The notes beneath the pieces are model-generated. The model was not told the origin of the DNA. It saw only the letters and a program-made list of their open reading frames with translations, and did no database searches. Shown in pieces: positions 1,447 through 53,820 of a stretch of 64,000 nt of DNA; within the stretch, counting starts at the first letter, position 1; the number at the start of each line of letters is the position of its first letter. This stretch comes from Paraflavitalea pollutisoli. GTDB taxonomy: Bacteria; Bacteroidota; Bacteroidia; Chitinophagales; Chitinophagaceae. The translations under genes and the position numbers were made by a program. The DNA is taken from positions 558,001 through 622,000 of the forward strand of contig NZ_JARKMX010000002.1 in NCBI RefSeq assembly GCF_029360705.1, in the 5' to 3' direction.

Positions 1447-2022
1447 ATGTTCAATCTTATTTTATTTGGCCCTCCCGGTAGCGGTAAGGGTACGCAGTCG
1501 GAGAAACTTATTGATAAATATGGCCTTCTCCACCTCAGTACAGGTGATTTGCTGCGTAAAGAGATTGCTAATCAGACCAAACTGGGCCTGGAAGCAAAAA
1601 GCTTTATGGACAAAGGACAACTGGTTCCGGATGCAGTAGTGATCGGCATGATCAACTCCGCCCTGGAAGCCAATCCCGCCGCCAAAGGTTTCTTATTTGA
1701 TGGTTTCCCCCGTACGGTGGCCCAAGCGGAAGCCCTGGACAACCTGCTGGCCAGCAAAAATTCCGGCATCTCCATCGTGTTGGCTTTGGAAGTAGACCAG
1801 GAAGAACTGGTAAAGCGGATCCAGATCCGTGGCCAAAGCTCCGGCCGCAGCGATGACTCCGATCCCAATGTGATCCGCGCCCGTCTCGTAGAATACGAGA
1901 ACAAGACCGCTCCCGTTGCCGGACATTATGCCGGTGTTGGTAAAGTGGTGTATGTAAAAGGCGTAGGAACGATCGATGAGATCTTCCAGTCGCTTTGCAG
2001 GCAGATCGACTCCCGTAAATAA
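1447..2022 (+). CDS. adk: Adenylate kinase
   Basis: Adk interconverts ATP + AMP and 2 ADP in the cytoplasm and sets the energy charge. The P-loop GPPGSGKGT is at residues 8-16, followed by the AMP-binding segment STGDLLR and the family motif DGFPRT. At 191 residues it is the short form: the LID is a small loop without the four zinc cysteines found in long Gram-positive enzymes. This length is common in Bacteroidota. The start is placed at the only ATG in front of the P-loop. It is a single-gene unit with a -7 box upstream and two hairpins downstream. Confidence 0.97.
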   Translation: MFNLILFGPPGSGKGTQSEKLIDKYGLLHLSTGDLLRKEIANQTKLGLEAKSFMDKGQLVPDAVVIGMINSALEANPAAKGFLFDGFPRTVAQAEALDNLLASKNSGISIVLALEVDQEELVKRIQIRGQSSGRSDDSDPNVIRARLVEYENKTAPVAGHYAGVGKVVYVKGVGTIDEIFQSLCRQIDSRK

Positions 2023-50618: not shown

Positions 50619-52328
50619 TTACAAGCGTCGTGCTAATGTTACAGTATTCCGAAACTTTTTTGTTTTACCCTGACCATCAAATATTTCCGTATACATTATA
50701 TAAGTGCCTAAGGGCAGCTGACGCCGGTTATTATCCATCCCGTCCCAGCGAAAGGTTCCCTCCCTGCCCAGTAAGGCATTCCGGGCCAGGTGACGTACTG
50801 GTACTCCATTGGCAGTAAACAGGATGATGTTGCCGGTACATCCCGGCTCTGCCGCCTGGTATTGCACCGTTACATAATCATCGATGCCATCGTTGTCGGG
50901 CGAAAACACGGCGGGCGATACGGTGATCGCACCTTTTGCCTGCAGATCGGCCCTGAACTGCGAATTGCGTAAACCGGGCGTACCAAACCCTGCTGTTGCT
51001 GCTGCCGACATCCAGTTTTGAGCGTGCTGTCCAGGCTTACTATAATCGATCCTTTCCAATGCTACGCCTTCTTCATTACCCAATAACGGTGAATGCCAGT
51101 TTTTATCATAGTGCAATTCGTCGATGACTACTTCCTGTTGATCCATCACCACTATTACACCTCTGTCATCAGGCAGCGAAGGTATTGACGAAGGTTGCAA
51201 TGTTGTGCCTATGGCGTTTGGGTAATGTTGCAGAAGCCAGGACGCATTCTCTGTCAGCACCCTGTATTCGCCCGGATACAACTGGTGAGGATTAGACGTT
51301 AATTGCTGCACATTCGTAAACTTTCCCGTGGCGGAACGATTGGCAATGTACAGCTGTTTACAATCTATGATCTTTCGGCTGCGATTGTACAACTCAATAT
51401 AGTCTGCGCCATCAGGCGGTGGGTTAAATAACAATTCGTTAATGACCACGTCGCCCGCTGCCACTGCCTGGGGTAAGCCTACACTGGCATGGTTCATCAT
51501 GCCGATCGTATTGCTACTGCAATCAGTAAGGTCTTTTACGGTGAGCCCCAATACCTGTGTCGCCGGCAAAGGCGTAGCCCATTCGAGCACTACTTCGCGG
51601 AACAAGGGAGGCTGCGGACGCGCTGCTACCGGCTGGCCTTTGCCTCCATCCAACTGATAATGGACCGGCTGCGCGGCCACAAGACTGTCGAGCGACTCAT
51701 CGAAGATAGCCACGACTGTAAGACTATCGGGCGAATAGGTGTTGATCAATGCCGGGGGCATTTCATCGGGATTGCTGGCCTGTACCGAGTTGACAGCGCC
51801 TGGTGTACCACCACTGGCATGTATGGCTGCTTTCCAGTTGTTGTTGCCGCAAGGGTTGGAGAGGTCGATCATCTCGAGGCTCCAGCCTCCACCGATCTTG
51901 ATGCTATTCTGGTACCAGGCATCGGTGTAAGCAACTGTATGAACCGTGCTGCCATCCGGTGCATATAAGGAGATCACATCAGCATCGTTGTTGAGGGAAG
52001 GGAAATTACTGACACCCGCCACTGGTCCCAATGGCTCGAATTGCATAACCGCCGAATTGGGGCATACGATGAGCCTGGCACCGGACTGCAGGTCTATGGC
52101 CTGGTTGATCGTTGCCGTCGCTGCGCCATCGCTGAGTTTCCATCCTTTCAGGTTGATGATCCTCGCTGATACATTGGTAAGTTCGATAAACTCGTGGTTG
52201 GGCAACCCCACAGGAGGAGTGGGATCGGGCATGAGCTCGGTGATAAGCACTTCATAACGTTGGGCTGGTTGCGCAAACAACACAGTGGCTGGCAGGGCCA
52301 GCAAAATGACAAGCAGTTTTATAGACAT
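50619..52328 (-). CDS. Secreted lamin-tail-domain protein
   Basis: A 569-residue exported protein with a signal peptide (1-19, VLFAQ). Two lamin-tail-like beta domains are visible: about 25-165 (ITELMPDPTPP ... HEFIELTN) and about 295-430 (INELLFNPPPDGADYIELYN), with a linking Ig-like region. The C-terminus (about 470-569) begins VSPAVFSPDNDGIDD and ends in a FlgD-like fold with GTYIMYTEIFDGQG, like surface proteins of gliding bacteria. It is likely exported to the cell surface; the role is unknown. Confidence 0.82.
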   Translation of the reverse strand: MSIKLLVILLALPATVLFAQPAQRYEVLITELMPDPTPPVGLPNHEFIELTNVSARIINLKGWKLSDGAATATINQAIDLQSGARLIVCPNSAVMQFEPLGPVAGVSNFPSLNNDADVISLYAPDGSTVHTVAYTDAWYQNSIKIGGGWSLEMIDLSNPCGNNNWKAAIHASGGTPGAVNSVQASNPDEMPPALINTYSPDSLTVVAIFDESLDSLVAAQPVHYQLDGGKGQPVAARPQPPLFREVVLEWATPLPATQVLGLTVKDLTDCSSNTIGMMNHASVGLPQAVAAGDVVINELLFNPPPDGADYIELYNRSRKIIDCKQLYIANRSATGKFTNVQQLTSNPHQLYPGEYRVLTENASWLLQHYPNAIGTTLQPSSIPSLPDDRGVIVVMDQQEVVIDELHYDKNWHSPLLGNEEGVALERIDYSKPGQHAQNWMSAAATAGFGTPGLRNSQFRADLQAKGAITVSPAVFSPDNDGIDDYVTVQYQAAEPGCTGNIILFTANGVPVRHLARNALLGREGTFRWDGMDNNRRQLPLGTYIMYTEIFDGQGKTKKFRNTVTLARRL

Positions 52329-52532: not shown

Positions 52533-52564
52533 TTTGCGGATTCTATGTTTGGGGACTACATTTG
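52533..52564 (+). promoter_or_regulatory. Consensus promoter of the asd leader
   Basis: TTTG (52533-52536), 20 nt, TACATTTG (52557-52564); both elements match. A second exact -7 box, TATGTTTG, overlaps at 52544-52551. Transcription would begin near 52570. Confidence 0.72.
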
Positions 52565-52573
52565 CTGCTCGCT

Positions 52574-52636
52574 ATGCAAAAAATGATGAAACATACAAAG
52601 CGCACGAAGAAGCAATCCAGACATGGGGAAGGCTAA
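52574..52636 (+). CDS. Candidate asd leader peptide, Lys/Thr/Met-rich
   Basis: A 20-codon ORF about 4 nt from the predicted transcription start. The product is MQKMMKHTKRTKKQSRHGEG: three Met, five Lys and two Thr, half of all residues. These are the end products of the aspartate pathway in which asd works. Its last codons (52625-52633) can pair with the terminator downstream. It may instead be a small basic protein in its own right, but the composition and RNA geometry favour a leader peptide. Confidence 0.65.
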   Translation: MQKMMKHTKRTKKQSRHGEG

Positions 52637-52693
52637 GTACTGCTTTGTATAGCAAAATATTTAAACGGCCTTCCCCACCAGGAAGGCCGTTTT
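52625..52693 (+). promoter_or_regulatory. Antiterminator/terminator pair upstream of asd
   Basis: Terminator: AAACGGCCTTCC (52663-52674) with GGAAGGCCGTTT (52681-52692), loop CCACCA, then T-rich sequence. Competing stem: GGGGAAGGC (52625-52633, last three leader codons) pairs over 9 bp with GCCTTCCCC (52668-52676), the 5' arm of the terminator. The two structures exclude each other. Confidence 0.7.
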
Positions 52694-52759
52694 GTTTTCA
52701 TCGGCTGGCGAATCAACAAGTCTATATTCATAAACTATAAACAAGCCAATCAACACACC

Positions 52760-53767
52760 ATGAAAGTTGCAGTAGTAGGCGCTACCGGCCTTGTAGGCAC
52801 CAAAATGTTGCAGGTATTAGCCGAGCGCAGTTTCCCCGTTACAGAACTCATTCCCGTAGCATCTGAAAGATCAGTAGGCAAGGAAGTTGAATTCAAGGGT
52901 AAGAAGTACAAGATCGTCAGCATGACCGACGCTATTGCTGCAAAGCCTGCTGTAGCCATCTTTTCGGCCGGCGGCAGCACTTCTCTGGAGTGGGCTCCCA
53001 AATTTGCAGAAGCGGGCATTACCGTGATCGATAACTCTTCGGCCTGGCGTATGGACCCTACCAAGAAGCTGGTAGTTCCTGAAGTAAATGCCGATGCACT
53101 GGGCAAGGACGACAAGATCATCGCCAACCCCAACTGTTCTACTATCCAAATGGTGGTAGCGCTGAATCCCCTGCACAAAAAGTACAATATCAAACGTGTG
53201 GTGGTATCTACCTATCAAAGTGTTACCGGCACCGGTAAGAAAGCGGTAGATCAGCTATTCGGTGAGCGTGCAAAAGCTGAAAAAGGTTCACAGGAAGAGT
53301 ATCCTATGGCCTACAAATATCCCATTGACCTCAATGTAATTCCCCAGATCGATGTATTCCTCGACAACGGATATACCAAAGAGGAAATGAAGATGGTGAA
53401 CGAGACCAAGAAGATCATGCGCGATGACAATATCCGTGTTACAGCTACCACCGTGCGTATCCCGGTAATGGGCGGCCACAGTGAAAGCGTAAACGTCGAG
53501 TTTGCCGAAGACTTCAAGCTGGAAGAAGTACGTGAGCTGCTGAGCAGCGCGCCCGGTGTAATCGTGGTTGATGAACCCGGCACGCAACAATATCCCATGC
53601 CGATGGATGCACACGACCGTGATGAAGTATTTGTAGGCCGCCTTCGTCGTGATGATACGCAGCCCAATACACTTAACCTGTGGGTAGTGAGCGACAACCT
53701 GCGTAAGGGAGCCGCCACCAATGCTGTGCAGATTGCAGAATACCTGACATCCAAGAACCTGTTATAA
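52760..53767 (+). CDS. asd: Aspartate-semialdehyde dehydrogenase
   Basis: Asd reduces aspartyl phosphate to aspartate semialdehyde with NADPH, the branch point to lysine, threonine, methionine and diaminopimelate. Of its 335 residues, the N-terminal cofactor motif is VVGATGLVGTKML, the nucleophile is C126 in NPNCST, and a catalytic His is H240 in VMGGHSESV. Nothing is missing. It is a single gene preceded by an attenuator-like leader and followed by a hairpin terminator. Confidence 0.97.
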   Translation: MKVAVVGATGLVGTKMLQVLAERSFPVTELIPVASERSVGKEVEFKGKKYKIVSMTDAIAAKPAVAIFSAGGSTSLEWAPKFAEAGITVIDNSSAWRMDPTKKLVVPEVNADALGKDDKIIANPNCSTIQMVVALNPLHKKYNIKRVVVSTYQSVTGTGKKAVDQLFGERAKAEKGSQEEYPMAYKYPIDLNVIPQIDVFLDNGYTKEEMKMVNETKKIMRDDNIRVTATTVRIPVMGGHSESVNVEFAEDFKLEEVRELLSSAPGVIVVDEPGTQQYPMPMDAHDRDEVFVGRLRRDDTQPNTLNLWVVSDNLRKGAATNAVQIAEYLTSKNLL

Positions 53768-53791
53768 GGGAAGTATAGCCATTGTTTCCCG

Positions 53792-53820
53792 GTCCCGCCC
53801 AAAAGGCGGGACTTCTTTTT
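53792..53820 (+). terminator. Terminator of asd
   Basis: Arms GTCCCGCC (53792-53799) and GGCGGGAC (53805-53812), then TTCTTTTT. Confidence 0.85.

Follow-up and report, generated by a model that had tools for sequence, protein, structure and literature searches.

Among the closest described systems, thrL combines a short ORF of end-product codons with alternative hairpins, controls thrABC and senses Thr and Ile, and the lysine riboswitch (L-box) binds lysine directly, without a leader ORF. In the accessible text of PMC1262725, the control of lysine-pathway genes by RNA is otherwise named as that of a riboswitch. For asd itself, PMC2864571 lists an RNA element of Lactobacillales, the asd RNA motif (RF01732), and cites attenuator-like sequences that were proposed ahead of asd in Streptococcus mutans (Cardineau and Curtiss 1987). 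Within Bacteroidota, Bacteroid-trp (RF01692) is a peptide-leader RNA, amino acid operons of Flavobacterium psychrophilum show signs of attenuation by leader peptides (excerpts of PMC9723704), and leader-like short ORFs appear in Bacteroides (excerpts of PMC7366714). Attenuation as such is thus not new in this phylum. The words asd, lysine, threonine and Bacteroid- are absent from the main text of PMC2965389 (2010), in the version accessible to us. Within the portion of the open-access literature covered, we have recognised no description of a leader-peptide attenuator for asd or lysine in Bacteroidota, and we have found no described case of a leader-peptide lysine sensor; an earlier sequence-only reading of this DNA knew of no case for asd in this phylum.

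We have analysed the region upstream of asd in a 64-kb stretch (the window, meaning that whole stretch) of the 8.76-Mb Paraflavitalea pollutisoli genome. The leader sits between a divergent ORF (start at 52328, minus strand) and asd (52760..53767, plus strand), the proposed target gene. The identification of this gene as encoding aspartate-semialdehyde dehydrogenase was confirmed by NCBIfam TIGR01296 (449.6 bits, cut-off 324.2). A terminator-like hairpin follows asd at 53791..53813 (plus strand), so the gene looks monocistronic, with asd the only apparent target of the leader. The order on the plus strand is a Bacteroidota-type promoter, a 20-codon ORF, a spacer, a 12-bp terminator and asd. 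The promoter (52533..52564, plus strand) comprises a -33 TTTG at 52533-52536 and a -7 box, TACATTTG, at 52557-52564, and fits the pattern TTTG / TAnnTTTG given for Bacteroidota in the accessible part of PMC7366714. A search for a sigma-70-like promoter ahead of the leader found none; the consensus promoter reported earlier is thus of the Bacteroidota type.

The leader ORF (52574..52636, plus strand) starts 9 nt past the -7 box, encodes MQKMMKHTKRTKKQSRHGEG and ends with TAA, and the same frame is kept across the 99 distinct asd leaders collected. Lys, Thr and Met make up 10 of the 20 residues when the start Met is included, as had been read directly, and 9 of 19 without it; they are concentrated in a control-codon zone at codons 2-13 (52577..52612, plus strand), delimited by the K/T/M/I content of the 99 leaders. 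The last three codons, GGGGAAGGC (52625-52633), are exactly complementary to GCCTTCCCC (52668-52676). The 9-bp pairing previously proposed is therefore present in the sequence, and extends to 11 bp once flanking U-A and U-G pairs are counted. Hence, the antiterminator would be formed by a 5′ strand that overlaps the ORF end (UGGGGAAGGCU, 52624..52634, with the 9-bp core at 52625-52633) and a 3′ strand at 52667..52677 that overlaps the 5′ arm of the terminator, both on the plus strand. The intrinsic terminator (52663..52698, plus strand) has a 12-bp stem (52663-52674 / 52681-52692), a loop at 52675-52680 and a T-rich tail. A further candidate helix, P1, would join ATACAAAGC (52593..52601, within codons 7-10) to GCTTTGTAT in the spacer (52642..52650), both on the plus strand.

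Such an arrangement was rare by chance. On both strands of the window we counted 36 terminator-like sites, 10 of which were preceded by a short ORF, and the asd leader had the top pairing between ORF end and terminator arm among those 10 ORFs (score 13, the next being 9). An equally strong 9-bp pairing arose in 8 of 5000 Markov-shuffled upstream sequences, and in none of the 5000 together with at least 50% K/T/M.

The leader resembles the known systems in plan and differs from each in detail. For the asd leader, an Rfam scan of the window and of relatives returned no family at its gathering score, the permissive matches being sub-threshold or at chance level. Like Thr_leader (RF00506), the leader has an end-product-codon ORF, a terminator before an aspartate-family gene and alternative hairpins, but it is Lys-dominated and does not match that model; one asd leader (L235:1214-1337), with the peptide MKLAIKHTTTTKKMHPKEEVA (KHTTTTKKM), reached 37.2 bits against a gathering score of 55. 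It shares with Bacteroid-trp the nature of a peptide-leader RNA in Bacteroidota, whereas the latter has Trp codons and precedes a trp gene, and the window has neither a match to it nor Trp codons in the leader. RF01732, an RNA element, and the attenuator-like S. mutans sequences share its position ahead of asd; these come from another phylum, and the window has no RF01732 match. With the lysine riboswitch it shares RNA control of lysine-pathway genes (PMC1262725, in part), but the window has no Rfam match to it.

We have then compared asd upstream regions among relatives. A near-identical leader was present in four genus mates. Across 85 asd loci (80 retrieved, that of the window and those of the four genus mates), the layout was found in 29, of which 28 were detected by script and one (L011) by eye. 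The titles of the leader-bearing loci include Niastella, Flavihumibacter, Filimonas, Sediminibacterium and Chitinophagaceae, and some are titled only Sphingobacteriales or Bacteroidetes. Among the same 85 loci the layout was absent from those titled Mucilaginibacter, Pedobacter, Hymenobacter, Dyadobacter and Flavobacterium, and also from three titled Chitinophaga pinensis and one Sediminibacterium; two (L031 and L045) have less than 100 nt of upstream sequence, too short to judge. In a further sample of the family, mostly one region per genus and taken among the better Asd matches listed, the layout preceded asd in 60 of 60 regions. The script detected 58 of these and missed two (G143 and G348, one with a GTG start) that were recognised by eye, which shows that it can overlook leaders.

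A covariance model was built from the 29 leaders with a structure set by hand, because RNAalifold on the MAFFT alignment gave only 4 terminator pairs, the terminators being misaligned. At E<=0.05 this model matched 285 of 394 family genomes and 85 of 98 genera, some of the weak matches being other leaders or chance. Inspection of 10 matched loci gave three asd, one dapA, four hisG (identified by likeness to the hisG of our own genome), one contig end and one chance match. When 392 genomes were drawn from across the phylum, 19 matched at E<=0.001, with 12 of them within the family; of the seven matches outside it, five resemble leaders that belong to other pathways, and two (L230 and L232) look like chance. 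A set of 30 genomes was chosen mainly because the model matched them weakly or not at all, one of them with 100 masked bases at the locus; the leader was seen by eye in four, so that part of the family lacks it. The conservation that was to be expected in relatives, namely a Lys/Thr/Met-rich ORF with its pairing and with synonymous changes, was thus found.

Altogether, 115 leaders were gathered and 110 analysed after five identical ones were dropped; L103 was left out as a repeat of L012, and L141, L142 and L144 as unrelated ORFs. The codon, pairing and folding counts exclude three asd leaders (L272-L274), the contig-end leader L266 and three dapA leaders (L265, L278 and L280). The peptides of the 99 distinct asd leaders are 13-22 residues long, and in them K/T/M/I account for 827 of the 1188 residues at codons 2-13 (69.6%) and for 53 of 484 after codon 13 (11%). 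Dinucleotide-preserving shuffles gave 42.4% for codons 2-13, with a maximum of 45.1% over 200 shuffles, and the other two frames gave 23.7% and 32.9%. Since the ANN codons of the asd leaders (n=905) comprise 414 Lys, 63 Asn and 1 Arg, A-richness alone does not explain this composition. The conserved core KHTKR also carries His (75/99) and Arg (50/95), neither of them an aspartate-family amino acid, and RNA pairing is one possible explanation for the conservation of these codons.

A copy of the leader elsewhere in the genome bears on what these codons specify. The second match of the model in our own genome (71.7 bits) precedes dapA (TIGR00674, 295.3 bits), the first step of the lysine branch, and is a Lys-rich, Thr/Met-poor leader (L087 = G000:C11:134050-134168, minus strand). 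A leader before dapA was found as well in the four genus mates, in three genomes whose loci were chosen by model match (G166, G250 and G032) and, by one further model match, in G119. Where dapA upstream regions were picked by genus or DapA similarity, 5 of 43 had a leader, three detected by script (G006, G027 and G039) and two by eye (G212 and G102). Besides L087, these dapA leaders are numbered L094-L100, L118, L143, L150, L265, L278 and L280. Thr and Met together contribute 24.9% in the 99 asd leaders versus 9.8% in 11 dapA leaders (Fisher 5e-5, with kinship ignored), and the dapA leaders of G027 and G119 contain no Thr at all. The dapA leaders thus keep Lys and lose Thr and Met, as would be expected if the codons set specificity. 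In a tree of 113 leaders, which includes L265, L278 and L280, five label changes are needed. Pairwise scores had hinted at two or more origins of the dapA copy, but this reading was dropped, a single dapA clade not being rejected (p-AU 0.635).

These data also bear on the alternative that survives best, an attenuator acting in effect as a sensor of lysine, or of slow translation of a basic peptide, with the Thr, Met and Ile codons as bystanders. Lys is indeed the commonest residue (34.8% of codons 2-13 in the 99 asd leaders) and equally frequent in the dapA copy (39.4% in the 11 dapA leaders), Met could serve initiation, and the genome already has a SAM riboswitch ahead of a metB-like gene (RF00162, 77.6 bits; L155:3210-3323, plus strand; gene named by reading). 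Against this, Thr falls from 18.2% in the asd leaders to 8.3% in the dapA leaders, and Lys-poor leaders rich in Thr and Ile occur (MINFTNTTIKTIKGFPRGKA and MKLAIKHTTTTKKMHPKEEVA). We therefore regard a sensor of lysine alone as unlikely, and favour an attenuator that reads several amino acids. The earlier proposal that Lys, Thr and Met are sensed holds in that these codons are enriched; it overlooked Ile, which is enriched in relatives, and Met sensing appears to be the weakest part of the set, because ATG codons could also act in initiation or as alternative starts. Nor did that reading mention the dapA copy or how close the promoter lies to the ORF.

A structured non-coding RNA or riboswitch, for instance a lysine aptamer, with its own terminator and a fortuitous ORF could account for the strong conservation of the core in DNA within the genus and for an RNA folding better than that of shuffled sequences (z -4.26). 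The constraint, though, follows the reading frame: single-base codon differences that are synonymous occurred at 1.82 times expectation in the ORF frame and at 0.60 and 0.81 times in the other two, in a test on pairs of related, hence non-independent, sequences. Codon choice is specific and the bases are not fixed, the residues permuting among K/T/M/I so that some lineages have the same mix in another order (MINFTNTTIKTIKGFPRGKA, MNITMTKKSIKKHISTREGA and MKLAIKHTTTTKKMHPKEEVA). Such permutation is more readily understood for control codons than for an RNA motif with fixed bases or a protein that folds. In addition, Rfam gave no family at its gathering threshold in the window and none at E<0.1 in the region. 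Taken with the synonymous excess, this makes a riboswitch very improbable; the ORF is probably translated. In the window, an alternative 5′ helix of GCTATGCAAA with TTTGTATAGC, which would sequester the start codon, was considered and rejected: compensating changes occur in L084 and L085, but L082 and L083 disrupt it. A functional small protein, or a small RNA in its own right, lying upstream of asd by chance, would agree with the short RNA (about 125 nt) that a terminated leader leaves, but it is the least credible alternative, given peptides of 13-22 residues with a tail variable or missing among relatives and a constraint on composition rather than sequence, an ORF end tied to the terminator arm, and copies that, where the neighbours were read, precede asd or dapA, which also contradicts a protein conserved far from asd.

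The preferred reading, a ribosome-mediated attenuator, requires the ORF end to switch partners, and we have examined this pairing in the 110 leaders. At its best, the ORF end paired with the terminator arm over 5-14 bp, and over at least 8 bp in 82 leaders. The antiterminator pairing score was 13.2 for the own strands versus 7.7 for shuffled ones, and the own partner strand scored above the average partner taken from other genomes in 81 of 110. A GAAGG/CCTTC core was present in 77 leaders, in which the first flanking pair is nearly invariant. The second flanking pair was formed in 57 of 77 versus 41.9 expected (0 of 2000 permutations), a clear covariation, and the third in 26 versus 19.1 expected (38 of 2000), with p-values that are overstated since the sequences are related; in the same 77 leaders the fourth (22 versus 23.4) and fifth (8 versus 18.6) had no excess. 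Larger co-occurring changes were seen as GGGGCT with AGGCCCC in L018 and as GAGAAG with CCTTCTC in L143 and L172. For P1, the scores were 9.9 (own), 9.0 (swapped) and 7.5 (shuffled), own exceeding swapped in 66 of 110, a weak support for this helix.

We have then folded the asd leaders with a ribosome in place, its footprint masked from -15 to +15 of the P site. With the A site at codons 4-12, the antiterminator formed in the nascent RNA of 97-99 of 99 leaders; this fell to 92 of 99 at codon 13, to 55 of 98 at codon 14 and to none from codon 16 on, including 0 of 99 at the stop codon. This permissive window for stalling matches the K/T/M/I-rich zone. In these models the antiterminator would exclude the terminator, and would be hidden once the ribosome has reached the stop codon. 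When the full-length leader was folded, the minimum-energy structure still contained the terminator in 64-87 of 99 for a ribosome stalled at codons 4-12, and in 99 of 99 for one at the stop. Since the terminator is often preferred at full length, the switch would need the antiterminator to form first and to persist. Without a ribosome the nascent fold was mixed (antiterminator in 77 of 99, P1 in 22 of 99), and this preference for the antiterminator suggests that the untranslated state is not clearly off.

The position of the promoter is compatible with a nearly leaderless RNA. Transcription would start about 5-7 nt past the -7 box. With a loose pattern, 89 of 99 asd leaders have a -7-like box; it lies 7-9 nt ahead of the start codon in 72 of them, and it was accompanied by a -33-like box in 81. 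This spacing, combined with the 5-7 nt offset, would place the start of the ORF within a few nt of the RNA 5′ end. In Bacteroides, 5′ UTRs shorter than 10 nt make up about 3.7%, according to the accessible part of PMC7366714.

The asd model also led to leaders for other pathways. In our own genome a His-rich leader, MNIFTHIHHHHHTYLQG, precedes hisG (L088 = G000:C15:3045546-3045667, minus strand) and by its layout would use the same mechanism; such His-rich leaders scored 37.9-44.1 bits with the asd model. Four relatives (L267, L268, L269 and L271) have similar His-rich leaders before hisG-like genes. The model picked up, in addition, leaders of another Bacteroidota family (L227, L228, L229 and L233) whose peptides contain WWW and which precede genes named trpE-like by reading, L227 matching RF01692 at 66.4 bits. 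In genome G710, a Cys-rich leader-like peptide, MKNLFTVCMPCNCCAKCGEVAAMV, with a terminator lies before a siroheme-synthase-like gene named by reading (L231, about 1500-1620, plus strand). A candidate Thr/Ile leader is located upstream of thrA (L155:12142), at L155:12247-12336 on the minus strand; its frame ends with TATTTTTIITTR (...SSSSIVASTATTTTTIITTR*), has no ATG (TTG is possible), and a clear terminator was not evident there. Two weak matches in our own genome near thr and met genes (22.8 and 22.7 bits) were discarded as not being leaders, the one at metB overlapping the SAM riboswitch.

Taken together, the asd leader is very probably a ribosome-mediated transcription attenuator that reads tRNA charging for Lys, Thr and Met and, in relatives, Ile. 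The attenuation logic first suggested from the letters of this DNA has gained support from conservation, the synonymous excess, some covariation and the ribosome-blocked folding. In this attenuator, the polymerase would transcribe a short leader whose ORF begins near the 5′ end. A ribosome stalling at K/T/M/I codons, within the first 12 or so, would leave the ORF end free to pair with the 5′ arm of the terminator, and the polymerase would run on into asd. Once the whole peptide is made, the ribosome, then at the stop codon, would cover the ORF-end strand, the terminator would fold and transcription would stop. P1, pairing the ORF with the spacer, may hold the leader off when no ribosome is present. 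The events in the cell, from the start of transcription and the translation of the ORF to stalling, termination and readthrough, are predictions of this model, as is the role of P1.

An ORF of end-product codons, a terminator before the gene and coding selection on the ORF are hallmarks of attenuators and were all found here, so that the leader would join the known class of ribosome-mediated attenuators. Its new elements would be the sensing of several amino acids at a shared branch-point enzyme and the sensing of lysine by a leader peptide. A broader reading, to which we give an even chance, is that one attenuator scaffold serves Chitinophagaceae as an interchangeable sensor: an OR gate for any shortage of Lys, Thr, Met or Ile at asd, a leader-peptide lysine sensor in the copy at dapA through loss of Thr and Met codons, and a His version at hisG, with the ORF translated from a nearly leaderless RNA. 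The asd leader is a defined regulator candidate in Bacteroidota, and the asd/dapA pair would offer a natural experiment in which the effect of control codons on specificity can be compared. If the proposal is true, a large bacterial family would have the branch point to Lys, Thr, Met and Ile under the control of one multi-amino-acid leader.
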